A DNA stretch of 64,000 nucleotides from Mesorhizobium sp. SARCC-RB16n (GTDB taxonomy: Bacteria; Pseudomonadota; Alphaproteobacteria; Rhizobiales; Rhizobiaceae), in assembly GCF_008520305.1 (NCBI RefSeq), contig NZ_ML703290.1, forward strand, positions 1 through 64,000. Reading direction: 5' to 3'. The first letter of the stretch is position 1. Each line of letters opens with the position of its first letter. The notes beneath the pieces were generated by a model, which saw nothing but the letters and a program-made list of their open reading frames with translations, ran no database searches and was not told the origin of the DNA. Shown piece after piece: positions 21,134 to 54,251 of the stretch. The translations under genes were made by a program, and so were the position numbers.

Positions 21134-21141
21134 GGGGAACC

Positions 21142-35192: not shown

Positions 35193-36656
35193 TCAGGCAC
35201 AGTATTTGGCGAGAAATCCCACGAAATCGTCGATGTCGGCTATAGTCGTTCGATGATTGACAATAGCACAACGCACCACGAGCTCGCCGTTTATGGATGT
35301 CCATGAGGGCGAAGCCAATCCGGATTCTTGCAGGTTCATGACCAAACTCCGGACAAACTCGGCGTTGCCCCCGCGAATGCCGAAGCAGACGATGTTGAGG
35401 GTCACTGGCGCCTTCAGCTCGAAAGCAGGGCAACTCGTCAGGCGCTCCGCGAGGTAATGTGCGAGCACGCAGGTGTGCGCTATCGACGCTCCTATGCGAA
35501 CCGTTCCAAGCGCCTCGATTGTCATCCATGTTTTCAATGCGCGGAACCCGCGCGACAAGTCCGGACCTAGATCGCAAGGCCAGGTTTCGCCAGCGGCAAG
35601 CCCGCGTTCGCCCCGCTGTAGATAGGCGGTAGGCTGCACGAACGTACGCTTCTGGGCGTCGCCATCCCGCACCAGCAGGAATCCGGCATCGTAAGGAACC
35701 TGGCCCCATTTGTGAAAGTCGAGGGCCACCGATGCCGACTTTTCGATGCCCTTGAACAATCCGCGCAGGGAATCTGACAACACGGCGAGTGCGCCAATAG
35801 CTCCATCGACATGAAACCAGAGCTTTTCCGCGGACGCGATATCGGCGATTTCCGCGAGTGGGTCGATAGCCCCGGTGTTTACAGTACCCGCGGTCCCTAC
35901 GACCAAAAATGGCAAAAGTCCCTTCGCCCGGTCTTCCCTGATGCCTGCGTACAGTGCGTCAGGCAGCATCCTTCCGGCATCGTCAACCGCGACGTTCCTC
36001 AGATTTGCCGATCCGATACCGGACAGCTGCATTGCCTGCGCGATGCAGGAATGAGCCTCTCTGGACGCATACGCGACGAGCTGGCGGTCGCAGTTCCCCA
36101 GGCCGGTCTCCCGAACGGACTGACCCAACGCTTCATTCCTGGCGATCGTGACCGCGACGAAGTTTGCCATCGAAGAGCCGGTGAGAAACAATCCGCTCGC
36201 GCCGGTGGGGTAGCCGAGGGCTTCGCTCATCCAGCGCACGATCTGTTGTTCAACCGCCAGGCCAGCATGGTCGCGGCCGCCGCAGTTCATGTTCAGCCCG
36301 CCCGCGACGATTTCCGCCAACATTCCGATCGGCGTACCAGCACCATGAACCCATCCCATGAACAACGGATGCAGGTTGCCGGTCGCGAATGGCATGATGT
36401 GCTTGCGCACATCGTCCAGGACATCGCCCAATTCGCGAGAACCGTTCGGTAGCGGGCGGGCAAACCTCTCACGCGTTTCATCGGTCGGTCGCTGCCATAC
36501 CGGCTTCTGCCTGATCGTTTCGATGTGGGCGATCATGTCGTCCAGCAAGCCGTGCGCTACCTCGCGAAACTGATCCCAGTTCGATGGATCAAGGCTGGTG
36601 GAGGTCTCCGCCACACTTTGTCCTGCTGGGCGTTTCTGCTCGATGGACAGCGACAT
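35193..36656 (-). CDS. PLP-dependent group II decarboxylase (aromatic/glutamate decarboxylase fold)
   Basis: A 487-residue fold-type I PLP enzyme of the DDC/GAD group. The cofactor Lys316 is in DFHKWGQVPYD, Asp284 and the stacking region lie in WFHVDGAIGAL, and the phosphate-binding TGSSMANF is near 159-166. The N-terminus LLDDMIAHIETIRQKPVWQ is typical of aromatic amino acid decarboxylases. The substrate is probably an amino acid or aminoacyl compound, decarboxylated or oxidatively deaminated. Its ATG overlaps the stop of the preceding PLP gene in TGATG, so translation is coupled. It is the last firm gene of an ATP-grasp/PLP/PLP cluster. Confidence 0.87.
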   Translation of the reverse strand: MSLSIEQKRPAGQSVAETSTSLDPSNWDQFREVAHGLLDDMIAHIETIRQKPVWQRPTDETRERFARPLPNGSRELGDVLDDVRKHIMPFATGNLHPLFMGWVHGAGTPIGMLAEIVAGGLNMNCGGRDHAGLAVEQQIVRWMSEALGYPTGASGLFLTGSSMANFVAVTIARNEALGQSVRETGLGNCDRQLVAYASREAHSCIAQAMQLSGIGSANLRNVAVDDAGRMLPDALYAGIREDRAKGLLPFLVVGTAGTVNTGAIDPLAEIADIASAEKLWFHVDGAIGALAVLSDSLRGLFKGIEKSASVALDFHKWGQVPYDAGFLLVRDGDAQKRTFVQPTAYLQRGERGLAAGETWPCDLGPDLSRGFRALKTWMTIEALGTVRIGASIAHTCVLAHYLAERLTSCPAFELKAPVTLNIVCFGIRGGNAEFVRSLVMNLQESGLASPSWTSINGELVVRCAIVNHRTTIADIDDFVGFLAKYCA

Positions 36657-38200
36657 CAAGCATCCAGCGGATGTCGGAGGACAGCAGATAGTTTCTCGAA
36701 GAATACATCGAGCCTTGATTCGATCGGACCGAACGCCTGATGCAACGACTGGCCCGCCGACATCCTCTTCGAGACGCTGATCACATCGGGGGCGGAGGCC
36801 GCAACGCGCAACACCGTGCGTGGACCGACACGCACGGCTTGCCCGACGTGGCAGATCGGGCCCTCGTTGAGACCGCGCATCAGCACCTGAATGGTTTGGC
36901 ACTCCTCGACCGAAGCGAAAGAGCCCGCGCTGTTTGTGACGGTCAGCGGGACCATTGCCCGTGAGCCGAGATGGTCGCCGTCATCATCGTGATGCAGGGA
37001 GATGCCCTTGACTGCGCCAGTTCGTGAGCGAACCAGGCGAACAAACTGTTCCTTGACGAGGTTTTGCCGGAGTTCATCGATCTCGGCATAGGGGTCAAGA
37101 TGAGCCAACGCAGCGACCCACCGCAAACCCAGGCCCAGATTCAATTCCGACTTGAACGCGAAGGTCATCCGTTGGCGAAGGGTCGCCGGCCAATCTTGAG
37201 CCGCGGTATATTCCGCCAGGCCTGCCGGAATATCGGAACTTGCCGCAATATCTCCGGCCAATCCCGCCGGGATGAGAAGTGCGCCGGAAAAAGGCGGCCC
37301 GGCGATGAACTTGGATCCCGTCACAGCCACCACGAAACCGTCTTCCAGATCCTGCCTGAGTTGGGAAATTGAGCCGCGGAACTGGCAGGCATCGACGATA
37401 ACCCGCACCCGACCTGGGGCAAGAGCCGCAGCGTGGCGCGCGGCTTGTCGGGTCACCGCCGGCAAGGCGGTTTTCGATGTGTCGAGCACATGGACGAGGA
37501 CATCTCGATCTAGCTTGAGCTCCAGCTCGACGGTGGCGATGATGTCGGCATCGATTTCATGTTGATGTCGAGGCTTGCCTTTCTCGTCGCGGATGGCAAT
37601 CGTGCGCACTTCGATGCGGCCTGGCGACAGCCCTTCAAGGGGAGCACCAGCCTCGACCGCGCTACCGAGTGCCGTCAAATCCGAGTAATGCCGCCCTGCC
37701 GCCGCCCGTGGAACCCCATTTCCTGTTTCGTCAGGTGCAACAAGCAAATTGGTCAAGGGGCGCCTGGAGAGGCCTGCAATCGTGCAGAGCGCGAGAAGCT
37801 CCGCATCCGTCCCGGAAGCGGCGAGAATGACTTGCGCTCCCGTACAGCCAAGATCGGAAACAATTCGCTCTCGAATGTCGCTGAACCATCGATCGGATGC
37901 GACAGGCGAAGGTGACTCGATATCAATGAGGCGTCGCAGCTCGACCCCGGCCGCCATCAACCCCTCCCGAGAGGCGTTGCTGGCCGTTGTCGACGAGAAT
38001 GAGATCTCATCGTCCGCCGAAGTCGTGCGTGTTCCATAGCGATTGCGCCGCGTGATTGCATCCAGCCAGATGCGCCTGTCGCCACCTGTCCCGAGCAGGA
38101 ATGAAAGGGAGGCCGGCGAATGGAGCTCGCGATCCCACCCACCCATTTCCGAGGTTGGATTCGCCGGCACCTGCGGGATACCAAGCTGAATTGCAGGCAT
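36656..38200 (-). CDS. PLP-dependent aminotransferase-fold enzyme of unknown specificity
   Basis: A 514-residue fold-type I PLP protein, different from the decarboxylase beside it. The likely cofactor contacts are ASGTDAELLAL (about 128-138, phosphate cup), VIVDACQ with Asp270 and Gln273, and Lys297 in VTGSKFIAGPPFSGAL, an arrangement like class V aminotransferases and desulfurases. It is longer than most class V enzymes, with an N-terminal RNRYGTRT segment near residue 53. I recognise no characterised subfamily. ATG 38200 is preferred; the frame is open to 38296 but would overlap the ATP-grasp gene. Its stop is coupled to the next gene. Confidence 0.78.
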   Translation of the reverse strand: MPAIQLGIPQVPANPTSEMGGWDRELHSPASLSFLLGTGGDRRIWLDAITRRNRYGTRTTSADDEISFSSTTASNASREGLMAAGVELRRLIDIESPSPVASDRWFSDIRERIVSDLGCTGAQVILAASGTDAELLALCTIAGLSRRPLTNLLVAPDETGNGVPRAAAGRHYSDLTALGSAVEAGAPLEGLSPGRIEVRTIAIRDEKGKPRHQHEIDADIIATVELELKLDRDVLVHVLDTSKTALPAVTRQAARHAAALAPGRVRVIVDACQFRGSISQLRQDLEDGFVVAVTGSKFIAGPPFSGALLIPAGLAGDIAASSDIPAGLAEYTAAQDWPATLRQRMTFAFKSELNLGLGLRWVAALAHLDPYAEIDELRQNLVKEQFVRLVRSRTGAVKGISLHHDDDGDHLGSRAMVPLTVTNSAGSFASVEECQTIQVLMRGLNEGPICHVGQAVRVGPRTVLRVAASAPDVISVSKRMSAGQSLHQAFGPIESRLDVFFEKLSAVLRHPLDA

Positions 38201-38240
38201 GACGTTCTCCGTTGTCGGGGCGATAGCGAATTGGTTTCGG

Positions 38241-40058
38241 TTAAAGCGGTTCACTGGCCGCCACGGCACCCGCCAGATAAGAGATCTCGGCGTCATGACT
38301 GATCAACGGTTCGAGATCGCTCGCCCGCTGAGTGAATTCCAATCCGCATCGGTCGACATAGGATCGATCGACGCGTTCGCAGAAACCCGGGTCGATGATC
38401 TTCTCGCCGTCCCAAAGAACGGCATGACCGGTGTTTGGAACGGTCGGTGAAACCACGCCTATGATCGCGGGTTTGGCCCAGAGCATGTAGATACTGCTCA
38501 GAAGAACGAAACCGCACTTGTTGGCCACGCCCCGCATGATGGAATGGCTCATCGGTCCGCCGAGCGGGTATGCGGGATCGCAGCTTCGTGCGATTTCCTC
38601 GACTTGTTCGTAGGTTCGGCCCGTGAGCATCGCCAGGACACAGACAAGGCAGTCGTCATCAGTTCTCTGGTAGACTGCAGGTTTTCCGGTATGGGCGCAT
38701 TCGATCGCTGGCGTGGACGTCGTCCGCGCCACGCGCCGTGCCAGCGCGCCTTCGAATGCCGCGAAGAGCTTGCGCATGGCGCTTTTCTTGTAGGGGAAGA
38801 TGCTTTCCCAATCCATGGAATGAACGATCATCGCGACATCCGCCTCGAACACCAGCAGGCGGCCATCTGCGAGTTCGGCGCAATCGATGGCGAAGTAGTC
38901 CAGCCCGAGACGTCGATGAAGAGCATCGAATGCAGGGGCGTGACGCACCGCGAAGTCGTTTTCGAAGTTTGCCATCCACAACGCTTCCTCGGCGCGCCTG
39001 TCTTCGTGCTGGGTCATGCCGGCGTTGAGGTAGTGAACCATCCAATGCTCGGAGACCGCGAGATGGCTGGCATAGGGCCGCCCGTTGATGAACGCGACGC
39101 GCTGCTTGCGGAATTTGCGATCAGTCCCGCTGTAGTCGATGAACGGCGTGATGTAGAATTCGCTCTCGTCCTGCGAATTCAGATAAGCGGCAAGCTCCGG
39201 TCGCGTGGAGATCTTCTCCATTCCCTTGCCGGCATGGGTGCCGACCGGGCGGACAATCACAGGAAACGCGGCCGCCGCGAGGATTGCGTCGACCTCGATT
39301 TCCCCGGAAGCCAGCCTCTTGATCACCGCTCGATCGGCGCGCGCGGCTGGCGGGGCAAGGATCGAAGGCTCGTCCTTCAACGCCTCCGCGACCCCGTCCC
39401 TGGACAGGGCCATGATGAGACGTGGCGCGTTGTTCATTATGGGGCCGGACCAGCCGCGCAGCAGCCGGTGAAGATTTTCCAGTACTGGAAGATTTACCGC
39501 GGACTCTCCGACGGCCACGAAGGCGACATCGTGCTCGGGAACATCGTTCAGGTCCGCGGTGTCGGCGTCGACGTAATGGAGCAGCAGGTTCGCGTCGGAG
39601 CCCTCCAGCAGAAATTCGATCGGCGTGTTCGCCATGAAGTCGCCGGCAGTCACGAAAACAAGAACGTTCGGTCCTGTGCCTTGTCCGTTGCGTATCCGGT
39701 ATTTTCGACTGATCTCGAGCGCGGCCTTCTGGCTGATGGCAGCCTTGTCTTCCTCTCCGATTGCGTGGAGGAGGATCGATACATCCAGGAACGCGGCGGC
39801 ATCGTCGAGATCAGCGGAAACGCGCGCGAACAGCTCGTCCCATATTGGGGAAATATCCCTTCCTTCAAAGACGGCGCGGACTATGGGGGCCTTACCCAAG
39901 ATGAGGTTCGAATTTTCCGACACGTGTGCCTTGGCTGCCGCGCTTTTCAACGTCTCAAGCCCTTCCGTCACGCGGTGGTGCGGCCGTCCCGGCCTCGACT
40001 TCGTTGCCCAACACGATGGGCGATTGTTGCTCTCAGCGCTTGTGCGAGCCTTGTGCAT
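38241..40058 (-). CDS. Three-domain protein: TPR-like region, ATP-grasp ligase, C39-like cysteine peptidase
   Basis: A 605-residue protein. Residues about 60-125 look like a helical repeat (LDVSILLHAIGEEDKAAISQ). Residues 130-215 are a pre-ATP-grasp domain with GDFMANTPIEFLL. The ATP-grasp part (about 240-435) has the Gly-rich loop RPVGTHAGKG and the acidic metal ligands in LLVFEADVAM. The C-terminal 150 residues read as a papain/C39 fold: Gln464 and Cys470 in QRTDDDC, His545 in GHAVLWDG, Asp556 in IIDPG. ATP-grasp enzymes join a carboxylate to an amine. Fusion to a peptidase is unusual. ATG 40058 is the only upstream Met; GTG 39971 is an alternative start. Confidence 0.8.
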   Translation of the reverse strand: MHKARTSAESNNRPSCWATKSRPGRPHHRVTEGLETLKSAAAKAHVSENSNLILGKAPIVRAVFEGRDISPIWDELFARVSADLDDAAAFLDVSILLHAIGEEDKAAISQKAALEISRKYRIRNGQGTGPNVLVFVTAGDFMANTPIEFLLEGSDANLLLHYVDADTADLNDVPEHDVAFVAVGESAVNLPVLENLHRLLRGWSGPIMNNAPRLIMALSRDGVAEALKDEPSILAPPAARADRAVIKRLASGEIEVDAILAAAAFPVIVRPVGTHAGKGMEKISTRPELAAYLNSQDESEFYITPFIDYSGTDRKFRKQRVAFINGRPYASHLAVSEHWMVHYLNAGMTQHEDRRAEEALWMANFENDFAVRHAPAFDALHRRLGLDYFAIDCAELADGRLLVFEADVAMIVHSMDWESIFPYKKSAMRKLFAAFEGALARRVARTTSTPAIECAHTGKPAVYQRTDDDCLVCVLAMLTGRTYEQVEEIARSCDPAYPLGGPMSHSIMRGVANKCGFVLLSSIYMLWAKPAIIGVVSPTVPNTGHAVLWDGEKIIDPGFCERVDRSYVDRCGLEFTQRASDLEPLISHDAEISYLAGAVAASEPL

Positions 40059-40088: not shown

Positions 40089-40189
40089 ACCCCGGCAACG
40101 CTCCCGTATGCTTGATCGGACATAGTCGCCGACGAACCGCAGCGGCTACCTGTCCATAAGCTGGCGAGTTCGAGGGGTGACTTCCAAAG

Positions 40190-40339
40190 ATGCTGGACCG
40201 CGGTTACTCCACCCTATCGGGCAAGTGGATCCGGATCGCCACGACCGTGGCGCTTCTCGCCATTGTCTGCCTGCTGATCGTCATGCCCGGCCTTGGGCCG
40301 CTCGCGGACGAACGCTCTTACGTGCTTTGGGTCTGGTAA
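40190..40339 (+). CDS. Possible small one-helix membrane protein (49 residues)
   Basis: ATG 40190 opens 49 codons with a hydrophobic helix, IATTVALLAIVCLLIVMPGL, and a short tail ending LADERSYVLWVW before TAA. A GAGGGG lies upstream, although rather far (about 13-18 bases). The gene ends 27 bases before the best start of the family 39 glycosyltransferase. I know no family for it; the helix and position make it plausible as a leader gene of that operon. Confidence 0.4.
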   Translation: MLDRGYSTLSGKWIRIATTVALLAIVCLLIVMPGLGPLADERSYVLWVW

Positions 40340-40365
40340 CCCAATGCTGCTGGATCAGTTCAGGG

Positions 40366-41973
40366 ATGATGCCGGTGCTGCCAGGCCGCGCGTTGCAAGC
40401 CTGGCCAAAAGGCACTCCTGCTTCCCCTGTTTTCCAACTGATTGTCGTGGTCGTCGCATTTCTGGTGCTCCGGATTGGACTTGCCTCGGTCATTCCGCTG
40501 TCGATCGACGAGGCTTATGCGGTTGTGGTGTCGCGCAGCCATTCGCTTTCATATTTCGACCACCCGCCACTGGGTTTCGCGCTGGCCCGTCTGATGGCGG
40601 ATGTTTTCGGCTGTGAATGCCGGCTTGCCGTCCGGCTGCCTTATGTGGTGCTCGGCTCGCTCTCGACGCTGCTGCTTTTCGAACTGACCCGCCATGCCTA
40701 CGGCAAGGTTGCCGCATTCTGGACCGCGGCCTGGTTCACCGTTGCGCCCTTCTTCCTTATTTCGGCAGGGCATTTCGTCGTGCCCGACGGGCCACTCGAT
40801 TTCTTTCTTCTGGCCAGCGCCTGTGCCGCCGTGCCCATGGTTCTGGGCGAACGGCCACGCTTCGCTTTGCTCCGCTGGATCATCGTCGGCGTCGCTTTCG
40901 GCCTGGCGCTGATGTCGAAGTACCAGGCCGGGCTGTTTGGCATCTCGGCCCTGCTTGTCTTGGTGTCGACGCAGTCCGGCCGGGCCGAACTGCGAACGCC
41001 AGGCCCCTGGATTGCCGGCGCCATCGCAACGCTTGGCCTGCTGCCCGTCATCATCTGGAATATGGACCATGGCTGGATCTCGTTTGCCTTCCAGACCGGC
41101 CGCGGCCTTGCCGAGGATGGCCATGCCCTCCACCCTGGAAATCTTGCCATCACGTTGCTGGGCCAGGCTGGCTATTTGTGGCCGCCGACCTGGCTTCTGG
41201 CCATGGCGTGCATGTGGGACGCAGCCCGCAGCGATTCGGTGGCCGATCGGTTCTTCGTGACGATCGCGGCGCTGCCGGTGGTGTTCTTCGACTTGGTCGC
41301 CCTGTTCAGCGCCCATTCCCTGCCGCACTGGTCGATGAGCGGCTTCCTGTTCGCCTTTCCGCTTTTCGGTCAATGGTGCAGCCGTCTTGCCGAACGCCGA
41401 CCTGGATTGCTGCGGCTGTCCTTTATCATAGCCGCCATCGTCGTTCCGCTCCTGGCGATGGGGTTTGCGGTGCAGGTCCGGGCCGGCGCCTTCACGCGGG
41501 CGTTCTATGAACGAGCGCCGAAATTCGACGTCAATTGGCAACTCGTCGATTGGTCTGCGCTGACCAGTGAGCCGCAGGGCAGCGATCTCAGCGGCGCCAA
41601 CGCCTATGTGGTCGCATCGAACTGGATGCAGGCGGCGCGGGCCGCCGACGCTCTTGGACCGGACGTACCGATAGAGGTGCTGCCGGGCGACCCGCGCCAT
41701 TTCCAGTTCATGAACGACGGGCGCTTGAAGACGCGAAGCGCTGGCTTCTTCGTCGGCGCCCTGGATTTCGGCAAGGAAGCGGCTCGCGAGAAGGAGTATC
41801 GCGACGGCCTTGACGGACGATACGTCGTCGATGGCCCGCCCCGGCGCCTCATACAGCGCATCGCCGGGTTTCCAGTCTTCGAAATCCTGATCCTGCCGGT
41901 CAACCGCATTGTGGCATCGCAAGCGCTCTTGCCAGGCGACGACCAAGCAAACGATGGCGGGCCGCGTCCTTGA
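40366..41973 (+). CDS. Family 39 glycosyltransferase (ArnT/PMT-like)
   Basis: A 535-residue inner membrane protein with about a dozen helices. The GT39 signatures are present: SIDEAYAVVVSRSHSLSYFDHPPLG near residues 43-67, where the acidic residue is catalytic, and a Tyr/His-rich periplasmic loop. Such enzymes transfer a sugar from undecaprenyl phosphate to lipid A, proteins or other acceptors on the periplasmic side. ATG 40366 is chosen since the frame upstream is not protein-like and overlaps the small protein. The stop overlaps the start of the GtrB-GtrA gene, which should make the lipid-linked donor. Confidence 0.87.
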   Translation: MMPVLPGRALQAWPKGTPASPVFQLIVVVVAFLVLRIGLASVIPLSIDEAYAVVVSRSHSLSYFDHPPLGFALARLMADVFGCECRLAVRLPYVVLGSLSTLLLFELTRHAYGKVAAFWTAAWFTVAPFFLISAGHFVVPDGPLDFFLLASACAAVPMVLGERPRFALLRWIIVGVAFGLALMSKYQAGLFGISALLVLVSTQSGRAELRTPGPWIAGAIATLGLLPVIIWNMDHGWISFAFQTGRGLAEDGHALHPGNLAITLLGQAGYLWPPTWLLAMACMWDAARSDSVADRFFVTIAALPVVFFDLVALFSAHSLPHWSMSGFLFAFPLFGQWCSRLAERRPGLLRLSFIIAAIVVPLLAMGFAVQVRAGAFTRAFYERAPKFDVNWQLVDWSALTSEPQGSDLSGANAYVVASNWMQAARAADALGPDVPIEVLPGDPRHFQFMNDGRLKTRSAGFFVGALDFGKEAAREKEYRDGLDGRYVVDGPPRRLIQRIAGFPVFEILILPVNRIVASQALLPGDDQANDGGPRP

Positions 41974-43130
41974 ACCAGGTGACATACCCAGTGCCAGACG
42001 TCGAACTGGCGACGGACACAAGCGGCGGTGCATCGCTGCAACGCCGCGGGGCGGAACTCACGGTCGTCGTCCCAACGCTGAACGAGCGCGCGAACATCGA
42101 TCTGCTGGTTGCGCGGCTGCACAAGTCGCTGCTCGGGATCAACTGGGAAGTGGTCTTTGTCGATGACGATTCAAAAGACGGGACGATTGCGGCTGTCCGC
42201 GACATTGCCAGCCATGATTATCAGGTTCGCGGCATAAGGCGCATCGCCCGCCGCGGCCTCGCCGGCGCATGCCTCGAGGGCGTCCTGTCCAGCTCGGCGC
42301 CCATCGTTGCAGTCATGGACGGCGATCTCCAGCACGACGAAACATGTCTTGCCGCGATGTTCGAGACGATGCGAGGCGGCGGCGCCGATCTGGTGGTGGC
42401 CAGCCGTTATGGAGACGATGGCGATGCTAACAGCGGATTGAGCCGGCTGCGTTCGGGTGGCAGCCGGCTGGCGACGCATCTCGCGCGGCTATTGCTGAAG
42501 GTTCCGCTCAGCGATCCAATGAGCGGCTTCTTCATGGTGCGGCGTGACATAGTCGATGCGGTGGCGCCGCGCCTGTCGCGGCAAGGCTTCAAGATCCTGC
42601 TGGACATTGTCGCATCGTCGCCGACACCACTTCGCATCCGGGAAATCCCCTATGTGTTCGGTCCGCGCCTGCATGGACAAAGCAAGCTCGATTCCCTGAT
42701 TGTGCTTGAATATCTGGGATTGCTGGTCGCCAAGGCGTCGGGCGATCTGATCTCGACGCGCTTTCTTGCCTTCGGCCTCGTCGGCTCGGCCGGTGTCGTG
42801 GTCCACCTCAGCGTCCTGCATGTGCTGCTGCCGCATGGCTTGCCTTTCACGGTGGCTCAGACCGCCGCCATGTTCACGGCCATGGCGTTCAACTATACGC
42901 TGAACAACACATTCACCTATCGCGACCAGCGCCGGCACGGCTGGCGCTTCGTCACCGGCTTCGCGATGTTCGCGGCGTTGTGCAGTTTTGGTGTCGTGGC
43001 GGGCGTCGGCGTGTCGACGCTTCTTTACACCAGTCCGTCGCGCTGGTGGGCGGCCGGGCTTGCCGCCGCCGCCGTCGGCTCCGCTTGGAACTATATCACC
43101 AACTCCGCCATCACCTGGCGCGTGCGTTGA
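41970..43130 (+). CDS. GtrB-GtrA fusion: polyprenyl-phosphate glycosyltransferase with flippase-like domain
   Basis: A 386-residue protein starting at TTG 41970, inside the stop of the GT39 gene (GTG 41979 is an alternative). Residues about 30-250 are a DPM1/GtrB-type GT2 domain with VVVPTLNER, FVDDDSKDG and MDGDLQHDE. Residues about 260-386 are a GtrA domain of four helices (FNYTLNNTFTYR is characteristic). The first half should attach a sugar to undecaprenyl phosphate at the cytoplasmic face. GtrA is proposed to help flip it. This supplies a donor to the neighbouring GT39 enzyme. Confidence 0.9.
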   Translation: MNQVTYPVPDVELATDTSGGASLQRRGAELTVVVPTLNERANIDLLVARLHKSLLGINWEVVFVDDDSKDGTIAAVRDIASHDYQVRGIRRIARRGLAGACLEGVLSSSAPIVAVMDGDLQHDETCLAAMFETMRGGGADLVVASRYGDDGDANSGLSRLRSGGSRLATHLARLLLKVPLSDPMSGFFMVRRDIVDAVAPRLSRQGFKILLDIVASSPTPLRIREIPYVFGPRLHGQSKLDSLIVLEYLGLLVAKASGDLISTRFLAFGLVGSAGVVVHLSVLHVLLPHGLPFTVAQTAAMFTAMAFNYTLNNTFTYRDQRRHGWRFVTGFAMFAALCSFGVVAGVGVSTLLYTSPSRWWAAGLAAAAVGSAWNYITNSAITWRVR

Positions 43131-43169
43131 TCGCCCGAAACGAGCCCGAAAACAGACGGAAATCCCCAA

Positions 43170-43721
43170 ATGTACCCAATCGATGCCGCAGTGACCGCCT
43201 GGATCAACAATTGGGCGGGACACGCTCCCGCAGTCGATTTCATCATGATCTGGATATCGACGCTCGGCGTTCCGCTCATGGTGCTGGCAGTCGCCTTGCA
43301 ATGGTGGCTGCCCCAGTCGGACCGGACCACCCGCCATGTGGTGGTGGCAACAGGCCTGTCGTTCTTGCTTGGTCTCGGAATCAACCAGCTGGTGTTGCTG
43401 TTCATACAGCGGGTGCGTCCCTACGACGCTCATGTCACGCATCTGATTATCGGGCGGACCGTAGATTTCTCATTCCCGTCCGACCATGCCACAGCGAGCT
43501 TTGCCATCGCGGCGGCGTTTCTGTTGCACGGCTTGCATCGCCGCGGGCTCGCATTTCTGGCGGCCGCATTGCTGGTCATGCTGTCACGCGTTTATTTGGG
43601 GACGCACTATGTCAGCGACATTCTCGGCGGGGCCGTCACGGCAATCATGGCGGCTATGCTGGTGCGCGCAGCCTACAGGCAGAACACGCGAGCCGATCGT
43701 CTGATCACCGGGATATTGTAA
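43170..43721 (+). CDS. PAP2 superfamily membrane phosphatase
   Basis: A 183-residue protein with about five to six helices and the PAP2 active-site motifs: IQRVRPYDAH, FPSDHATASF with the catalytic His, and SRVYLGTHYVSDILGG. Relatives dephosphorylate undecaprenyl diphosphate, phosphatidylglycerol phosphate or lipid A. In this operon, recycling of polyprenyl phosphate or lipid A dephosphorylation are the likeliest roles. The usual Lys of the first motif is replaced. It starts 39 bases after the GtrB-GtrA gene. Confidence 0.9.
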   Translation: MYPIDAAVTAWINNWAGHAPAVDFIMIWISTLGVPLMVLAVALQWWLPQSDRTTRHVVVATGLSFLLGLGINQLVLLFIQRVRPYDAHVTHLIIGRTVDFSFPSDHATASFAIAAAFLLHGLHRRGLAFLAAALLVMLSRVYLGTHYVSDILGGAVTAIMAAMLVRAAYRQNTRADRLITGIL

Positions 43722-44227: not shown

Positions 44228-46882
44228 TCAGAGATCCCGCAAGTGCTCGCCATCCTTCTCCAACGGTGGCCTTGCGAACAAGACGGCTGCGATGACGGAG
44301 GCGGCTACGAGGCACAGCACGGTGCCCAGATAGATCCAGGGCACCGAAAGCGTTTCGGGCGGCGGGTCGAACACCCCCGTCAACAGCTTCACCAGCATCC
44401 AAGCCGTGGCAACGCCGGACAGCAAACCGAAGGCGAAACCGCCGACGATGATGACGGCGCCTTCGCCCCACAGGAAGGCCGACAACTGTCGTGGCTTGGC
44501 GCCGATAGCGCTCAGGATGGCGAAGCTTCTGCGGCGCTCGATGAAACCGAGTGCCAGCATCAGCCCGGCCGCGGCGGCGGCCATGACGACGGAAAACCCA
44601 AGCTCGATCGCCGTCAGTCCGCCGAGGTCGACCGCCGTCAAGCTCGAGCCGATGAGGTGGGCAGCTTGGCCGATGTCGGTGACCTTCAACGACGGATCGA
44701 ACGTCAGCATCGACGACACCTGGCGTGCGAGTGCCGTTGGATCTCCCTTGGCTCGCATCAACACATATTCCGATGCGTCGGAACCCGTCATGCGCGCCAC
44801 GTAGGCGGCATTGGCGACAAGGAAGGAATCCTTCGGCGCGGTCGGGAATTCGCGCGCCACCCCGACGAATTTGAAGGCGATGGGATGATACTGATGGTCC
44901 TTGGCATCGATCAGCCGCAGATTGAGGGTGTCGCCCTGCTGAAGCTGGAAATCCTGCACGGTTTCCTCGGACACAAGCACCCCGTCCGGCGTGGATGCGA
45001 GCCGGCCAAGTGTGTCGGTGGCATTGCCGCCACTGAAATAGGCGTCCGACAGGCTGGTGGCCCGTTCGATGCGCCTGGGGTCGATGCCATAGAGGTCCTG
45101 CAGGTCGGCGCCGACATAGGCGAAGCGATGCTGCATGGGTTCCGCCGCCGCGGCGTTGGCGAGCGAGGCCAGCGCCGTCAGATGCGCTCCAGCCGGCCTG
45201 TCCGATGTTCCCAGAACGGTGACATCGGAGCCATTCGTCAATTCGGCGTCGATGCGCGCCTGCGCATTATAGGTGGCGTTGAAGATGGCGGTCGAGGTTG
45301 CGAACGAGATCGCCAGCGCGGTCATTGCGATCGCGATGGTCAGACGGCCGGATTGCCGCGACAGCGCGGCCGACACGACCGGCGCGAGACGCCCGCAGAC
45401 TGGCGCGATGATCGCCCGAAGCATCGCACCGTTTCGGGAGATGATCTCGCCCGACAGCCGTATCGCCAATAGCGCCATGCCCAGCCAGAACAGCGCGGGC
45501 GCGATGAAGGCCTTGTAGTCCACCGAGGTTGCGGCAACGCCTTCGGGCGCTAGCACGATCTGGTAGCCGGTGCTCGCCGATAGCCAGAAGAAGAGGCCGG
45601 CGGCGGCAAGCAGCAACAGGTCGAGCCACAGCTTCTGCCATAGCGGTGACACGGTCCTGGTGACCGTGCGGCGGGCAAAGTTGACCGTGGTCCAGCGAGC
45701 GTCGCGCCAAGCCGGAAACAGGAAGGCGACGAACCCGACGAGCAAGCCGACGAGTGCAATAAAAAGCAGTGTCGGGACACTGTCTGCCGTTGTTGCGCGC
45801 GGGCCTGTGGCCATGAGACCGGGCAGAAGCGCTCCTGCGAGGCCCAAAGCGGTACCACCGATTGCCGCGATCGCGGCCTCGGTCGCGGACAAGGCAAGCA
45901 CCGTTCGCGTCGTCGCGCCGCGAACGCGAAGCAGCGCCTGCTCGACGCGCCGGCGCGCGGCACCCGACAAGGTGACTGCAAAGGTGAGCGCCACGGCGAG
46001 CGCAATGCCGGGCACCCCCAGGAACAGGAACAGGACCGAGGCGTAGAGAGCGTCTTCGCGGACGGCACCGAGACGGGAGCCGAGATTGTCGGCAACCAGC
46101 GCCTGGCCGGCTACCTTCGCCTCGAGGTTCCGCCTCGCACCGGTGACGAAAGTATAGGCCGAGACCGGATCGCGCGGCAGCGCGGCGTGGACGAGCCGGA
46201 CGTGCAGTTGCAGCCGGGTGGTGTCGGGCCGTGCCTTTTCCTGTGAGGAAAACAGTTGCAGCCAGTCTTGCGAAGGCAGGATCAGCACATTGTCGGGCGG
46301 CGCCTGTGGCGCGACCTGAGGCGGCAAGCCGACCGCCTGAAAAAGCGAATCGGCATCGGGAAGATCGATCACGCCAGCCACTTTCACATCCGCCGGCGGC
46401 AGACCTATCCGTGTGATCGACACCGTGTCGCCCGGGCCGACATGGAGATTGGCCGCCGTCTGCTGGGCAATGAGAACGCCGTCGACCTTGCCGGAAAGCA
46501 ATCTGGTCTCCGCCGGAAAATCCTTGGGGTAGCCGTTGTCGAAGGCAACCACCTGCCCCGGTCCGGTTGTCTGTGTCGTGCCGCCGGTCTTGGCCTCCAG
46601 GCCGGCAATGTCGGCATATCGAACCTGATGGGCAACGTCGACCTGCGCGGCATCAGCCAAGGCCTTGCTGATCAGCGCCGGGTCTACCCCAGGGATCACC
46701 TGGACCTGCCAGTCGATCGGAACCGCCGATATGGCGCGGCTGGTCATGGAATTGCCAGCATTGACGAGAAACACGGTCATCGCCGTGAGCAGTGCCACCG
46801 TCAATGCCACGCCCGCGGTGGCGCCGGCGACGCGAGGGAGGCGGTGGGCGAGAACGCCGCGAATCCACAACAGCAGCATCAT
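44228..46882 (-). CDS. ABC transporter permease with duplicated FtsX domains
   Basis: An 884-residue membrane protein. It has an N-terminal helix (WIRGVLAHRLPRVAGATAGV), a large periplasmic MacB-PCD-like domain, a first FtsX region around residues 270-410, further helices and a second periplasmic region, then a last FtsX region (about 745-875, VMAAAAAGLMLALGFIERRR). Such permeases extract lipoproteins or lipids or drive envelope processes by mechanotransmission. ATG 46882 overlaps the ATPase stop in ATGA. It is served by two ATPases encoded just upstream. Confidence 0.85.
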   Translation of the reverse strand: MMLLLWIRGVLAHRLPRVAGATAGVALTVALLTAMTVFLVNAGNSMTSRAISAVPIDWQVQVIPGVDPALISKALADAAQVDVAHQVRYADIAGLEAKTGGTTQTTGPGQVVAFDNGYPKDFPAETRLLSGKVDGVLIAQQTAANLHVGPGDTVSITRIGLPPADVKVAGVIDLPDADSLFQAVGLPPQVAPQAPPDNVLILPSQDWLQLFSSQEKARPDTTRLQLHVRLVHAALPRDPVSAYTFVTGARRNLEAKVAGQALVADNLGSRLGAVREDALYASVLFLFLGVPGIALAVALTFAVTLSGAARRRVEQALLRVRGATTRTVLALSATEAAIAAIGGTALGLAGALLPGLMATGPRATTADSVPTLLFIALVGLLVGFVAFLFPAWRDARWTTVNFARRTVTRTVSPLWQKLWLDLLLLAAAGLFFWLSASTGYQIVLAPEGVAATSVDYKAFIAPALFWLGMALLAIRLSGEIISRNGAMLRAIIAPVCGRLAPVVSAALSRQSGRLTIAIAMTALAISFATSTAIFNATYNAQARIDAELTNGSDVTVLGTSDRPAGAHLTALASLANAAAAEPMQHRFAYVGADLQDLYGIDPRRIERATSLSDAYFSGGNATDTLGRLASTPDGVLVSEETVQDFQLQQGDTLNLRLIDAKDHQYHPIAFKFVGVAREFPTAPKDSFLVANAAYVARMTGSDASEYVLMRAKGDPTALARQVSSMLTFDPSLKVTDIGQAAHLIGSSLTAVDLGGLTAIELGFSVVMAAAAAGLMLALGFIERRRSFAILSAIGAKPRQLSAFLWGEGAVIIVGGFAFGLLSGVATAWMLVKLLTGVFDPPPETLSVPWIYLGTVLCLVAASVIAAVLFARPPLEKDGEHLRDL

Positions 46883-47553
46883 GCCACCCGGTTTCTCGGC
46901 CAGCCAGGGATCAGCTGGCCATGGTCCATCGTCCACCGTGTCGCCATCCGCGCGGCCACGGCGTTGTCATGCGTTGCGAGGACCAGCGCAATGTCGGTGC
47001 CGTCCAGGTGATGCAGCACGGCGTCGAAGAACAGTTGCGCGGTTACGCTATCGAGCTGCCCCGTCGGTTCGTCGGCCAGAATCAGCTTCGGCCCGATGAC
47101 AAGGGCACGTGCCATCGCCACCCGCTGTGCCTGTCCGCCGGACAATTCCTCCGGCAGCTTGTCGGCAAGACCGGCAAGACCGAACGATGCCAGAAGCGAA
47201 ATGCCGGCGTCCTTGCCGGCGTCCTCGCCTGCCAGGATCATCGGCAGGTCGACATTCTGAGACGCGGTAAGAGCCGGAAAGAGGCTGGGGGACTGGAATA
47301 CCATTCCGACCCGGCGCGGCCTGAGGTCGTCGAATGCGCCGAGTCCGGGCCATTCGATATTGCCGCTTGTCGGCCTGTCCAGCCCGCCAAGAATATGCAA
47401 CAGCGTCGTCTTGCCGCTACCCGACGGGCCAACCACGGCAATGCGTGCCCCCGACACGATCTCGCAGTTGATATCGCGCAAAACGGTGCTGCGGCCGGCT
47501 CCGTCGTGGAAAGCGCGACCGAGATTTTTCGCCACGACCAGCGTCTCAGTCAC
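46879..47553 (-). CDS. ABC transporter ATP-binding protein, LolD/MacB type (second copy)
   Basis: A 224-residue ATPase. Walker A is [12 protein letters not shown], the signature is [15 protein letters not shown], and Walker B is [12 protein letters not shown]. It belongs to the LolD/MacB group that works with FtsX-type permeases. It overlaps the upstream ATPase gene by eight bases and the permease by four. With its sister it may form a heterodimeric motor, or each may serve one half of the permease. Confidence 0.92.
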
Positions 47554-48208
47554 TCTCGATCCTCCCGTCCTGCAGCCGTATGATCCGGTCGGCTCGTTGT
47601 GCCAGCGCCGTGCTGTGGGTTGCCAGCAATGTCGCCAGCCCCGCTTCGCGCCTGGTCTCGAAATGCCCGATCAGTCGGGATTCGGTTTCCTGGTCGACCT
47701 CGGCGGTCGGTTCGTCGGCAACGAGAACGGGCGGATTCGCAGCGAGCGCCACAGCGAGGCCGGCGCGCGCGGTCTCGCCACCGGACAGCGTCGACGGGAA
47801 TGCCGGTGCACGATGCGAAAGGCCGACATTCTCCAGCAGAAATCCGATTCGCTGTTCGTCCTGCTTTCCGGCCAGACGCATCTGGAAGCGTATGTTCTGC
47901 TCAACGGTCAGATGCGGAAAAAGATTGCCCCACTGAAGCAGGATGCCGAAATTCGCCGCGCGCAGGCGTGCCCGCTCGGCCTCCGATCGCCGGGAGAGCC
48001 TGCGGCCGGTCACATCGACATGGCCGCCGTCCGGCTCGTCCAGGCCGGTCAGACAGGCCAGCAAGGTGGATTTGCCGCTGCCGGACGGTCCGGTGACGGC
48101 GACGATCTCACCAGGCGACAGATGCAGGCTCACTCCCCGCAGCGCGGCGGTCTCGTCGTCTCCGATATGAAAGAACCGATAGATCTCGTGCGCGCTCAGC
48201 GCATACAT
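47546..48208 (-). CDS. ABC transporter ATP-binding protein, LolD/MacB type (first copy)
   Basis: A 220-residue ATPase with Walker A GPSGSGKSTLLA, signature TLSGGETARAGLAVAL and Walker B VLVADEPTAEVD. The signature differs from LSGGQ (SGGET), and the motif after Walker B is DQETE, so this copy is more divergent than its neighbour. It begins one base after the secreted-protein stop, so all four genes form one tight operon. Confidence 0.91.
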   Translation of the reverse strand: MYALSAHEIYRFFHIGDDETAALRGVSLHLSPGEIVAVTGPSGSGKSTLLACLTGLDEPDGGHVDVTGRRLSRRSEAERARLRAANFGILLQWGNLFPHLTVEQNIRFQMRLAGKQDEQRIGFLLENVGLSHRAPAFPSTLSGGETARAGLAVALAANPPVLVADEPTAEVDQETESRLIGHFETRREAGLATLLATHSTALAQRADRIIRLQDGRIESD

Positions 48209-48209
48209 T

Positions 48210-48812
48210 TCATTTCCACCGGAACGAGTTCGACATCAGCTGCCACTGGTCGACATTGTCCGCCCCTTTCGGTGCATAGAGTTCCAGCGTGACGAGCTTG
48301 CCATCCTTGAAGAAGAGATAGCGTTCATTCTCCAGCCGGACCTGCTTGTTGGTGACCGCGTTCGGCTCCGAATTGGAGGTGTAGACGATGCGTATCGCCG
48401 GGCCTGCCGGAAGTGTTACCGGCTTGACCGCGCTCACCTTCACGGCGCGCTCGGTTTTCTCGAGGTCGGGCACATAGTTTGCCTTGGCGCTCTCGGCTGT
48501 TGGGGCGGCGTCGGCTTTCGACACAGAAACAACGACGCCGTCGAGCTTGTCGACGAAACTCGCGCCATCGGCACGATCCGACCGCGCCCAGCCCTCGGGA
48601 ACCTTCATCGCGAACCCCTGCGGCGATGCGTAGTCGATGAAAACCTGGGAGTCTGGAATGTCGCCAGGTGGGTTTTTCTCCGGCTGAACGGCCTTTTCCG
48701 CGAACGCAGGCGTGCTGCCCGCGATCGGGACAAGCGCGCCGGCTGTGCTCAGAGATGCCGTGACAGCGAGGACCGGCAGAATTCGGCAGATTTTCTCAAA
48801 TATGCTCTTCAT
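48210..48812 (-). CDS. Secreted protein of unknown family preceding the ABC operon
   Basis: A 200-residue protein with a signal peptide (LPVLAVTASLSTAGALVPIA, cleavage after AFA near residue 38). The mature part reads like a PsbP/photosystem-type or DUF1795-like alpha/beta sandwich: YASPQGFAMKVPEGWARSDR and a closing KLVTLELYAPKGADNVDQW. The exact family is not recognised with certainty. Being one base before the first ATPase gene suggests it is the periplasmic partner of the transporter. The copy 3 regulatory site ends about 77 bases upstream of its start. Confidence 0.8.
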   Translation of the reverse strand: MKSIFEKICRILPVLAVTASLSTAGALVPIAGSTPAFAEKAVQPEKNPPGDIPDSQVFIDYASPQGFAMKVPEGWARSDRADGASFVDKLDGVVVSVSKADAAPTAESAKANYVPDLEKTERAVKVSAVKPVTLPAGPAIRIVYTSNSEPNAVTNKQVRLENERYLFFKDGKLVTLELYAPKGADNVDQWQLMSNSFRWK

Positions 48813-48888
48813 ATCATGCAGCCTTTCGAACGAAATGGCGATTGCGTTCAGTATGCCGCTTCAAACTTACAGACAGGTCGCCTCGTCC

Positions 48889-48904
48889 ATACGGATTGGT
48901 AAGC
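48889..48904. promoter_or_regulatory. Regulatory site CWTAC-N6-GTAWK, copy 3
   Basis: CATACGGATTGGTAAG matches CTTAC-N6-GTAAG with one change. It is 77 bases upstream of the secreted protein that leads the ABC operon. A weaker half-match, CTTAC-AGACAG-GTCGC, lies 23 bases further upstream of the operon in the reading sense (48866-48881). Confidence 0.65.
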
Positions 48905-48933
48905 TTTGATGCTCGCCGTCGCTTCCATACGGC

Positions 48934-50304
48934 CTACGATTTCGCTGCGTGGAAACTTATGCCGACCACCAGTCCAGGATGATTATCCTTAAGGCTGATG
49001 GACGCACCGTGCAGATCGGCTATGGCCCGCACGAGGCTCAATCCAAGTCCGTTGCCGGGCGTCGAGCGGCTGTGGTCCAGCCTGTAGAGCCGCTGGAAGA
49101 CTTTCTCGCGCTCTTGTGCCGGAATTCCAGGGCCATCGTCGCTGACTTCTACCAGGATGCTATCATCCTGCCTGGCCACCGATAATTCGATGCCTGTGCC
49201 TCGCGGAGAGTGCCGCAGGGCATTCTCCACGAGATTGGCGAACATCTGCGTCAGCAGTTCCCAATCCCCGTGGATTGGGCATTGCTGGCCCGTGAAAACC
49301 TTTGCCGACAGTATTTTTCCGTCGTCTTCGGCGACGTCCGCGTAGATTTCAGCGATGGTTTCGACGACGCCATTGATATCCAGATCGATGAATCGCGCCT
49401 TGCGCGCGCCAGCCTCGATCTGGGCGATGCGCAGCAAAGCCTCGAAGGTTTCGTTTATCTGGTGGCCCGCGGCGAGGGCGTCCGCCAGGTCCTCGGCATC
49501 ACCTTGCCCGGATACGGCTTTCTCCGATGCAGCCTCGAGGCTGATCTGCAGGCGGTTCAACGGCGTCTTCAGATCATGCGCAATGTTGGTGCTGACCTGC
49601 TTCACTCCTTCGACAAGCGCCGAAAGACGGTCGAGAGCAGCGTTGACCTGCGCTGAAACGCCGTCGATGTCGTCGCCGTTGCCAATCAAGGGGATGCGAG
49701 CACCAAGACGCCCGTGCGACACGTCGACCATCGTGGCAGCGATGCCGTCGAGTCGGCGCTGGACACGCGCGGCCAGCAACGCGCCGCCGGCCACGGCCAG
49801 CCCGGTAATGATCAGCGTAGCCCAGCCGAAACTCATCAGCACGATCGTTTCCAGTTCCTCGGTTTCGGAGAGCGTGAAGGCGACCGCCAGGCTGTTTGCA
49901 CCAACCGAACCGGAATAGACCCGGTATGCGGTGTCCGGTGGCACGTCTGGCAGCGCAGCTTCAAATATTGAGAACCCGTCCGGAAGATGTGCCGCGATAA
50001 GGGTCCCTGCCAGACGGTTGCCGTCCGGGCCGGTCAACGAAAAAAGCTGTTCCTTCTTCGGGCTGAGCCTGGAATGGCTGTCGACCGTCGAAATCAGATC
50101 CTCCAGATCGCTGTCGGTGTAGGTGGCAGCCACGACCGAATAGGTTTCCTTGATGGACTCGTCGAGCCGCTCCGCCAGGTCAGCACTCATCAGCTGGTAG
50201 ACGATGGCGCCCGACAGGACGAAGGCCAGCACGAACAGGAATGCGAAGGTCAGCGCCAGCCGGAAAGGTGTGCTGCGCAGCAGGCTAGACCGTATTTCTG
50301 TCAT
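48934..50304 (-). CDS. Sensor histidine kinase
   Basis: A 456-residue membrane sensor. The first helix is about residues 17-38, a periplasmic sensing domain spans about 39-152, and the second helix is about 153-178. HAMP follows, then HisKA with phospho-acceptor His243 in STNIAHDLKTPLNRL. HATPase has the N box FANLVENALRHSP, G1 DDGPGIP and G2 GNGLGLSLV. The signal is unknown. It overlaps the response regulator by four bases. The two-gene system sits in the middle of envelope genes that share a palindromic site. Confidence 0.93.
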   Translation of the reverse strand: MTEIRSSLLRSTPFRLALTFAFLFVLAFVLSGAIVYQLMSADLAERLDESIKETYSVVAATYTDSDLEDLISTVDSHSRLSPKKEQLFSLTGPDGNRLAGTLIAAHLPDGFSIFEAALPDVPPDTAYRVYSGSVGANSLAVAFTLSETEELETIVLMSFGWATLIITGLAVAGGALLAARVQRRLDGIAATMVDVSHGRLGARIPLIGNGDDIDGVSAQVNAALDRLSALVEGVKQVSTNIAHDLKTPLNRLQISLEAASEKAVSGQGDAEDLADALAAGHQINETFEALLRIAQIEAGARKARFIDLDINGVVETIAEIYADVAEDDGKILSAKVFTGQQCPIHGDWELLTQMFANLVENALRHSPRGTGIELSVARQDDSILVEVSDDGPGIPAQEREKVFQRLYRLDHSRSTPGNGLGLSLVRAIADLHGASISLKDNHPGLVVGISFHAAKS

Positions 50305-50984
50305 GTTGAAAGCGGCGCATGCAGGCTGTAGCCAGTATTGCGGATCGTGTGGATTAGCTGGATTTCGAACGGCTTGTCGATCTTGGTCCGCAGCCGGCTG
50401 ATATGGGTCTCGACCACGCTGGTCCTGGGATCGAAATGAAAATCCCAGACACGCTCGAGCAGCATAGTCCGGGTAATTACCCGCCCTTCGCCGCGCATCA
50501 GCACTTCCAGCAGGCTGAACTCCCGCGGCTGCAGATCGATCGGCTGGCCCCGCCGCGTAACGCGCCGCATGATCAGGTCCATTTCGAGATCGGCGACCCG
50601 CAATGTGGTTTTCTGCTCCTGCGCCGCCGGCCTTCGCCCCAGGGCATTGACCCGGGCCAGCAGCTCGGAAAAAGCGAAGGGCTTGACCAGATAATCGTCG
50701 CCACCCGCCTCGAGCCCTTCGACCCGATCGTCGATGCCGCCGATGGAGGTGAGGAAGATAGCGGGCGTCAGCACGCCGGCAGCGCGAACCGCCTTGATCA
50801 TCGACAGGCCGTCGAGGCCCGGGATCATGCGATCCGCCACGATCACGTCATAGCTGCCGCTGGTCGCCGCGAAAAGCGCGTCGTGGCCGTCTCTTATGAG
50901 ATCGCAGACGTGGCCGGCCTCGGTCAGCCCTCTGACGATGTAATCGGCCGTCCTTTGGTCATCCTCGACAACGAGAAGTCGCAT
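50301..50984 (-). CDS. OmpR-family response regulator
   Basis: A 227-residue regulator. The receiver has acidic pocket VVEDD and phospho-acceptor Asp51 in VIVADRMIPGLDGL, with Lys in YLVKPF. The winged-helix domain ends VVETHISRLRTKIDKPFEIQ followed by LIHTIRNTGYSL, closest by eye to the CusR/CzcR/IrlR branch. Members of that branch often bind palindromic sites near metal or envelope stress genes. It is encoded before its kinase and overlaps it. No copy of the local site was seen in front of this gene itself. Confidence 0.94.
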   Translation of the reverse strand: MRLLVVEDDQRTADYIVRGLTEAGHVCDLIRDGHDALFAATSGSYDVIVADRMIPGLDGLSMIKAVRAAGVLTPAIFLTSIGGIDDRVEGLEAGGDDYLVKPFAFSELLARVNALGRRPAAQEQKTTLRVADLEMDLIMRRVTRRGQPIDLQPREFSLLEVLMRGEGRVITRTMLLERVWDFHFDPRTSVVETHISRLRTKIDKPFEIQLIHTIRNTGYSLHAPLST

Positions 50985-51042
50985 GGTTGTCCTGGTCCAT
51001 TTGCCGACAGCGATAGGCTAGCACGAACCCATTCCTGGGATA

Positions 51043-51618
51043 TCACGAGCCCGGGAATCCCAATAACGGTTCCATGGCCTCGAAAGACTGATCCATTTCA
51101 TAGGTGCCGAGGATCGGGATCGCGATATGGCCGAAGCGGATCGACAGCTGGGCTTCGGATCGCTCCTCGCCCGCCTTTGCCAGCGCCGCAAGATAAAGAG
51201 CGGATGCCAGGCCGGTCCTGTCGGAGCCGGCCTGGCAATGGATGAGGACGGGTTTGGGGACCCGCCTCATCAAGGCGATCAGCGCCAGAGACTGCCGCGG
51301 GAGCAGTTTCATACGAGCCGACAGGCCGAAGTCGACATGACGGATTCCGAGATCTTTCGCGGTCTTGATTTCCGCATCGTACCAGGCGCGACCGGGGGAT
51401 TCGCCGCGTAGATTGATAATCGTAGCGATGTGGTATTCGTCCCGGTAAGCCCTGATCTCGTCCGCCGAAGGCTGTGCGGACCGATAGGCTTCACCCGCGA
51501 CGATCACGTGGAAATTGTTGTTCAGATGGGTCGCCGCCAGCGCGCAGCCGGCAAAGGCGACAACGCCGACCAGCGATGCCGCCCACGCCCTGATCGAAAC
51601 GCACCGGAAGCTTCTCAT
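51043..51618 (-). CDS. Exported dual-specificity/tyrosine phosphatase
   Basis: A 191-residue protein with an N-terminal hydrophobic leader (AWAASLVGVVAFAGCALA). The protein tyrosine phosphatase loop is HCQAGSDRTG, with Cys128 and Arg134 completing CX5R. Related rhizobial exported phosphatases act on lipid A or phosphatidylglycerol phosphate, so a lipid substrate is as likely as a protein. It lies 39 bases after the COG4705 gene on the same strand and may be co-transcribed with it. Confidence 0.86.
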   Translation of the reverse strand: MRSFRCVSIRAWAASLVGVVAFAGCALAATHLNNNFHVIVAGEAYRSAQPSADEIRAYRDEYHIATIINLRGESPGRAWYDAEIKTAKDLGIRHVDFGLSARMKLLPRQSLALIALMRRVPKPVLIHCQAGSDRTGLASALYLAALAKAGEERSEAQLSIRFGHIAIPILGTYEMDQSFEAMEPLLGFPGS

Positions 51619-51657
51619 CTGCGGTCTCTTCGCCGGGCGGGCAACCCGGCCCTGGCC

Positions 51658-52452
51658 CTAGTCCGAATCAAGCAGCATCTCGTCCAACTCATCGGCGTTC
51701 TTTCTAAGCGTCATGTAGAGGACTAGGGCAACGATGCAGCCGAGGAAGGCGAGGCTGGTGAAGGTGGTGCCGAAGCCCAGGCCGCCATATTCGACCGGCT
51801 GCGACAGCAGGTCGCCGAATGAGGCGCCGAGCGGCCGCGTCAGGATGTAGGCGAGCCAGAAGGCCAGGATGCCGTCAAGATTGATGAGGTAGTAGGCCAG
51901 CGCGATGAGCCCGATCACACCGCCGAACAGCAGGCCGGTGGTGAGGTAGCCCAGGTCAAAGCGTTCGGCGACCAGATCTCCGGCGGCGGTACCAAGCGAA
52001 AAGGTGAAGAGGATCGCCAGCCAATAGAAGATCTCGCGCCTGGTGGTGAAGATGGTGTGGATCGACAAGGTTCTTTCGCTGGCGTACCAGACCGCGAAGG
52101 TCGCAGCCAGCACGACACTGAAAGCAATCGTCGTCGTCTCGAGACGGACGCCGAAATTGTCGACGAGGTTGTCGGTAACCAGGGTGCCGACAACGCTTAT
52201 CAGCACCACCGCCAGCCAATAGGCCCAGGGCACGTAACGCTTCTGCGCGAACTGTAGGACAAGCGCGACGACCAGGACACCGGTCATGATCAGCGACGTC
52301 ACCGTCAGCCCGAGACCGAGGTTGACGGCAAGATAGTCGGCAGCCGTTTCGCCCATCGTCACCGCCATCAGTTTGATCAGCCAGAAATCGAGGGTGACGT
52401 CGGGAACCCTGTTGAGAGCCGGCTCGATGCGGTTGGTTTTCGGCGCGAGCAT
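51658..52452 (-). CDS. COG4705 membrane protein with fourfold internal repeat
   Basis: A 264-residue inner membrane protein with about eight helices. A short pattern recurs four times at regular distance: VTMGETAADYLAVNLGLG, SVVGTLVTDNLVDNFGV, FSLGTAAGDLVAERFDLGY and RPLGASFGDLLSQPVEYGG. Each has Gly, Glu/Thr/Ala, Asp placed in or near a helix, suggesting duplication of a two-helix unit with acidic residues lining a path. Function unknown; relatives are sometimes induced by metals. It precedes the phosphatase gene. Confidence 0.85.
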   Translation of the reverse strand: MLAPKTNRIEPALNRVPDVTLDFWLIKLMAVTMGETAADYLAVNLGLGLTVTSLIMTGVLVVALVLQFAQKRYVPWAYWLAVVLISVVGTLVTDNLVDNFGVRLETTTIAFSVVLAATFAVWYASERTLSIHTIFTTRREIFYWLAILFTFSLGTAAGDLVAERFDLGYLTTGLLFGGVIGLIALAYYLINLDGILAFWLAYILTRPLGASFGDLLSQPVEYGGLGFGTTFTSLAFLGCIVALVLYMTLRKNADELDEMLLDSD

Positions 52453-54248: not shown

Positions 54249-54251
54249 CGC

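Follow-up and report, generated by a model that had tools for sequence, protein, structure and literature searches.

The three consecutive minus-strand genes at 35193..40058 of the window (the whole stretch of 64,000 nucleotides from Mesorhizobium sp. SARCC-RB16n analyzed here) belong to a conserved and widespread cassette, which probably places a small decoration on a cell-surface filament, most likely flagellin or its glycan. In the scheme that we favor, with a probability of about one half, genes C and B would supply an amine or amino acid, and the product of gene A would link it through an amide bond to flagellin or a flagellin glycan. Gene A (38241..40058) is separated by 40 bases from gene B (36656..38200), which in turn overlaps gene C (35193..36656) at TGATG. 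These coordinates, the enzyme types and the overlap had been reported in the original prediction, and all of them were confirmed. In the closest of the genomes searched (G001), the A protein is 97% identical, and the trio is also carried by named Mesorhizobium loci.

Gene A has a predicted architecture of TPR, pre-ATP-grasp and RimK/LysX-type ATP-grasp ligase (approximately residues 53–450), followed by a fused C39-like domain (residues 452–605). Its structure model shows an ATP-grasp fold, and in the structure comparison the nearest solved structures are RimK, LysX, and ArgX. Enzymes of this kind ligate amino acids to protein carboxylates. We predict A to be an ATP-grasp carboxylate-amine ligase of the RimK/LysX type, although it differs from the RimK and LysX/ArgX ligases by the TPR N-terminus and by its score of 14.4 bits against the curated RimK model TIGR00768, below the cut-off of 143.4. 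No Pfam or NCBIfam model matched A above its cut-off. The alignment of A covered the window and 57 of the 80 named loci, with 14 excluded because stops or reading-frame problems interrupted the matched region and nine by choice.

Both other genes encode predicted pyridoxal phosphate (PLP) enzymes. Gene B did not match any Pfam or NCBIfam model, and no Pfam family, Aminotran_5 (PF00266) included, was hit at E-values up to 1. Still, its structure model (pLDDT 90) has the fold of class V aminotransferases and desulfurases, and Asp270 and Lys297, the expected PLP holders, are invariant in 35 aligned sequences covering 34 of the 42 loci with B. Judging by the model, B is a fold-type I, class V-like PLP enzyme of no named family, with an Asp and a Schiff-base Lys. 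On plasmids of Sinorhizobium and Rhizobium, paralogues of B directly adjoin non-ribosomal peptide synthetase (NRPS) genes; they share 30–33% identity with B, and we found no A next to them. Because these remote paralogues come after NRPS genes, B may be an enzyme that provides building blocks. Gene C matches the group II PLP decarboxylases (PF00282, E = 1.2e-56), and the catalytic Lys316 and the loop Tyr345 are invariant in 34 aligned sequences (33 of the 52 loci with C). Aromatic amino acid decarboxylases are its nearest relatives both in sequence and among solved structures.

Mesorhizobium, Rhizobium, and Hyphomicrobium carry the trio, as do other Proteobacteria, there arranged as C-A-B. Within the window's clade the genes are arranged A-B-C; outside it, the arrangement is C-A-B or B-A-C. 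C accompanies A in 52 of the 80 named A loci retrieved, B does so in 42, and both do in 40. Nine further loci have a class V aminotransferase gene within ∼2.5 kb of A that we take to be serC-like, partly from a serC motif and partly from the serC annotation of the gene following A in L017; one such gene was assigned to class V aminotransferases by Pfam. In three more, a class III aminotransferase gene lies within ∼2.5 kb of A, as identified by Pfam in L077 and by clustering in L078 and L090. Altogether, some PLP partner accompanies A in 66 of the 80 loci, and none is in view in 14. The recurrence of the trio with intact catalytic residues upholds the original proposal that the three genes constitute one system, and the idea that this system brings together PLP chemistry and a predicted amide ligase is likewise supported. 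Our search of the open-access literature found no description of the cassette; Iyer et al. (2009) on ATP-grasp amidoligases, which is outside that literature, may mention related systems.

By contrast, the C39-like part of A (38244..38705) is an add-on. It is fused to A in 10 of the 80 named loci, is a reading frame of its own in L072 (unless a frameshift in this bin is responsible), and is missing from the remaining 69, as well as from two genomes of the window's own genus. An essential trimming step by the C39-like part is thus unsupported. In peptidase C39, the motif order is Gln...Asp-Cys, then His/Asp. The C39-like part of A shares this order, with Gln, Cys, His, and Asp invariant in 10 of 10 sequences, Cys470, His545, and Asp556 among them; it differs from peptidase C39 in its score below the Pfam cut-off and in the lack of an ABC transporter, as no ABC domain was matched in A by the Pfam scan. 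Of the three C39-like domains scanned, only that of L072 matched Pfam C39, at E = 0.054 and 13.8 bits (cut-off 22). The structure model of A has low confidence across this part, so that the listing of no fold besides ATP-grasp for the C-terminus is uninformative. There were no matches to the C39-like part in the phage collection. A leader-peptide (RiPP/C39) reading is unsupported, as A lacks an exporter domain and the C39-like domain is optional.

Of the locations shared by several lineages, the flagellar operon is the most specific: the cassette, A with C, or A with a serC-like gene lies inside such operons in seven or eight lineages. In genus g36, which belongs to the window's order, the cassette is situated between flgE-flgK-flgL and flbT-fliC in all seven genomes read, as B-A-C in five (L162, L163, L194, L195, and L196) and as A-C only in two (L164 and L165); a gene for a 277-residue glycosyltransferase-like protein adjoins it in all of them except L164. 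Two Rhizobium-group genomes, L066 and L071, have the arrangement fla-fla-C-A-fla-fla; a GT41 gene is also present in L066. Other arrangements are fliC-C-A-flbT-flaF-flgL-flgK-flgE in L092, C-A-B beside flgE-I in L093 and L098 (where cheB and flgA were also recognized in L093), fliC-fliD-fliS-C-A-B in L169, and B, fliC, flbT, flaF, A, C in L183. L101 and L108 have fliC together with A and a serC-like gene.

Mapping the flagellar label on the A tree required seven changes; this is a quick tree with long branches for L092/L183 and L101, and eight short or unexamined loci were left without a label. The tree excluded matches covering fewer than 250 profile positions and 17 identical rows; five of the excluded rows (L162, L163, L194, L195, and L196) were flagellar, and their copies were given the flagellar label. 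Flagellum-linked loci comprise 7 of the 80 named loci, 2 of the 12 A genomes of the class sample, and 8 of the 26 loci read in the phylum sample of 398 genomes, seven of these eight being from g36. The phylum sample had 28 A genomes, and the best loci of 26 were read (G619 and G656 were left out). The flagellar reference set was built from loci already seen as flagellar and hence is sensitive to those types only; in particular, it missed L060 from the window's clade, where Pfam identified rod-like and DUF1217 genes no more than 5 kb away from A, and this locus was not counted as linked. Seven of the 36 named groups were linked, or five lineages after merging close pairs; the Poisson probability of five is ∼9e-4 at a 2% chance per group and 0.016 at 4%, the per-group rate of chance neighborhood (1–4%) being our own estimate. 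Set against a flagellar reading are the low share of linked named loci, the 14 loci with no PLP partner in view, and the two-component regulators that also recur near A.

Of 77 genomes with A that were checked, 76 encode flagellin, compared to 303 of 370 without A (Fisher's test, P = 1.4e-5, one shared genome removed), but the test ignores kinship, as related genomes are not independent. The former include all 50 named A genomes checked, which we picked from the 80 and for which completeness is not stated. In the phylum sample alone, 27 of the 28 A genomes have flagellin, the exception being 68% complete, and P is 0.03; there, flagellin is common regardless of A (330 of 398 genomes). That the A and flagellin counts refer to the same 398 genomes is deduced from matching settings, count, and listed handles. 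The association of A with flagellin is thus weaker than the P-value suggests, through both relatedness and our choice of named genomes. Two g36 genomes that are not among the A matches, G205 and G228, have a matching locus that retains flgE-flgK-flgL and flbT or pieces of it but none of the three cassette genes, and flagellin is represented there by short fragments only; two Flagellin_N matches remain in each genome at unlisted positions. This paired loss could be one deletion of adjacent genes. As the matching locus of genome G269, from a related genus, holds long flagellin frames but no cassette, the cassette is optional.

The window's own clade (42 tree rows) lies outside flagellar clusters in the loci read, apart from the L060 genes mentioned above. 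The cassette of this clade is no longer at the flagellar locus, and its target may be flagellin, reached in trans, or the envelope. In the latter case, lipid A or a related glycan would be decorated with an amine or amino acid conjugate made by the cassette, or the cassette would serve an envelope stress response, with a CusRS/PmrAB-like two-component system controlling it. In the window, ArnT-like GT39, GT2-GtrA, and PAP2 genes diverge from A, and MacB-type ABC, two-component, tyrosine-phosphatase-like, DUF347, and HlyD/RND genes lie farther out. Some of these genes have homologues close to A in L033, L037, L031, L060, L061, L068, and L081 and in a Rhizobium subclade with EptA-type transferases, making an envelope target a real rival for the window copy; in addition, an annotated Cupriavidus plasmid has GT39-GtrA-GT2 beside A (a tblastn match in two pieces). 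However, the arrangement varies. Among the 129 loci searched, genes near A included those for response regulators in 10, histidine kinases in seven, phosphatases in eight, all from one tree subclade, RND pumps in six, and GT39 in two. Moreover, two-component and RND genes are common anyway, and an envelope target leaves the flagellar loci unexplained; we consider it rather unlikely. As candidate conserved members of the cassette, GT39 and GT2-GtrA were rejected, GT39 being found only in L018 and L033 among the 129 loci, and so were the EptA-type, tyrosine-phosphatase, and outer membrane protein genes beside A, which come mainly from one Rhizobium subclade. In R. tumorigenes, a phosphoethanolamine transferase is annotated ∼8 kb from A.

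A free product, such as a small metabolite, a signal, or an antibiotic-like dipeptide or amide, would be in line with the original prediction. ATP-grasp and PLP enzymes do make dipeptide- or amide-type compounds in known pathways, and the B paralogues beside NRPS genes point the same way, but the latter are distant and have no A next to them. Neither does a single transporter family recur, mixed ABC ATPases being seen in the fetched stretch of 14 of the 80 loci. Above all, the family sits inside flagellar operons in several lineages, and therefore we prefer modification of flagellin or a surface structure over a free small molecule, which is unlikely. Another alternative has a methylofuran/methanofuran-type cofactor as the product, with C acting as an MfnA-like tyrosine decarboxylase and A as an MfnD-like tyramine-glutamate ligase. 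According to the part of the source available to us, archaeal methanofuran synthesis uses this enzyme pair, MfnA, a PLP decarboxylase, making the amine and MfnD coupling it to glutamate, and MyfA, a bacterial protein that resembles MfnD, belongs to the ATP-grasp group (PMC8141765). C does match the MfnA model, though at E = 9e-19 and 67.5 bits it falls far below the cut-off of 299.4. The known pair serves a soluble cofactor. The formyltransferase family using it (PF01913) was found in only 2 of the 30 A genomes that we picked for this comparison and not in the other 28, and we rejected the cofactor pathway as a general role on these grounds; the flagellar location also speaks against it. Hence this role is largely refuted and very improbable, while the chemistry could still be alike.

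In the favored reading, decoration of flagellin or its glycan, what we observe are enzyme classes, conserved residues, and location; from these we infer substrates, product, and target as follows. C, with its decarboxylase family and catalytic residues in place, would convert an amino acid to an amine. B would make or transform a second amino acid building block, as suggested by its fold and by the swapping of partners, a serC-like or class III aminotransferase taking its place elsewhere. Given its RimK/LysX/ArgX fold, A would use ATP to activate a carboxylate and join the amine or amino acid to it by an amide bond, and its N-terminal TPR pair may hold the protein substrate. In the window's branch, the added C39-like cysteine hydrolase or transferase domain might, speculatively, edit or remove the conjugate. 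In a stronger version, which we regard as quite unlikely, A would found a new class of protein-level flagellin modifiers, with a TPR-guided RimK-type ligase coupling a biogenic amine, made in place by the decarboxylase, to flagellin side chains without a sugar, and the fused C39-like domain reversing this in one branch.

ATP-grasp genes have been linked to flagellin modification before. In Clostridioides difficile with type B flagellin, the passages available to us describe the ATP-grasp gene CDR20291_0245 as required for the taurine, alanine, and glycine cap, and 0245 together with the amino acid enzyme gene 0246, both downstream of fliC, as needed for the glycan cap (PMC5207246; PMC5207245). 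Locus CDR20291_0244–0247 thus resembles the cassette in having ATP-grasp and amino acid enzyme genes near fliC; it is set apart, by description only, by a carbamoyl-phosphate synthetase-like ATP-grasp (Pfam 13535) and other partner genes, and those passages, unlike the cassette, feature no PLP decarboxylase (PMC5207246; PMC5207245). In Shewanella, the excerpted account of sfmABCDE reports that loss of the terminal ATP-grasp gene sfmE shifts the flagellin mass (PMC3765264). The likeness is again flagellin modification with an ATP-grasp gene; the glycan, however, is of the nonulosonic acid type, and neither "decarboxylase" nor "pyridoxal" occurs in the text available (PMC3765264). At about even odds, we read the cassette as a further variant on this theme, in which an ATP-grasp amidoligase would modify flagellin or the surface.

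The cassette offers a testable gene set for flagellar or surface modification in many Proteobacteria, including soil and plant-associated ones, and its A and B genes represent two families with no above-cut-off match in Pfam or NCBIfam. Decorations of flagellin can alter adhesion and flagellin recognition. In C. difficile, groups on flagellin can alter motility, as stated in the part of the report available (PMC5207246). The subpolar flagellum of Bradyrhizobium diazoefficiens has been suggested to be possibly glycosylated in the accessible part of a review of rhizobial motility (PMC8429497); if genus g36 is Bradyrhizobium, as seems probable in part from its large repeated flagellins, the cassette genes would be candidates. 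If our reading is true, ATP-grasp/PLP chemistry would reach from metabolites to a secreted protein filament.

Next to the cassette in the window, and divergent from it, is a gene group (40177-43718) encoding proteins of the ArnT-like GT39, GT2-GtrA fusion and PAP2 types. The same group adjoins the cassette in G001 (locus L018), the nearest of the genomes compared, and GT39 and GT2-GtrA genes adjoin it at locus L033. Genes for a MacB-type ABC transporter, a two-component system, a tyrosine-phosphatase-like protein, DUF347 and HlyD/RND proteins form one block at 44231-57458, parts of which have homologues close to A, the ATP-grasp ligase gene, in several other genomes. Elsewhere in the window, consecutive PrkA, DUF444 and SpoVR genes occupy 17851-22686 on the plus strand.

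Both in the flagellar loci of g36, a genus of the same order, and in Phenylobacterium, A is adjoined by a gene for a glycosyltransferase-like protein of 263-277 aa (L165:6976-7806; L068:9205-9993). The protein has a DxD-type motif; a Pfam scan of two such g36 proteins gave no match. At the matching loci of two g36 genomes without the cassette (L204 and L205), flagellin is present only as fragments, and in L205 flbT is split over two frames. Frame-split copies of A itself were found on a Cupriavidus plasmid (L016:9899-11157) and in genome G037 (L024:8001-9729), where B, the class V-like PLP enzyme gene, is split as well.

ALTTAQ-type repeat proteins, assigned by Pfam for L063 and by clustering for L062 and L065, adjoin A or are encoded close to it at these three loci, and a DUF2026 gene lies beside or close to A in L062 and L065. 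Distant B-family proteins (30-33% identity to B) are encoded ∼9 kb into loci L026, L027 and L028 on Sinorhizobium and Rhizobium plasmids, in each case immediately preceded by NRPS-type genes; two of these loci also carry PPTase genes, and one a SagB-type gene.
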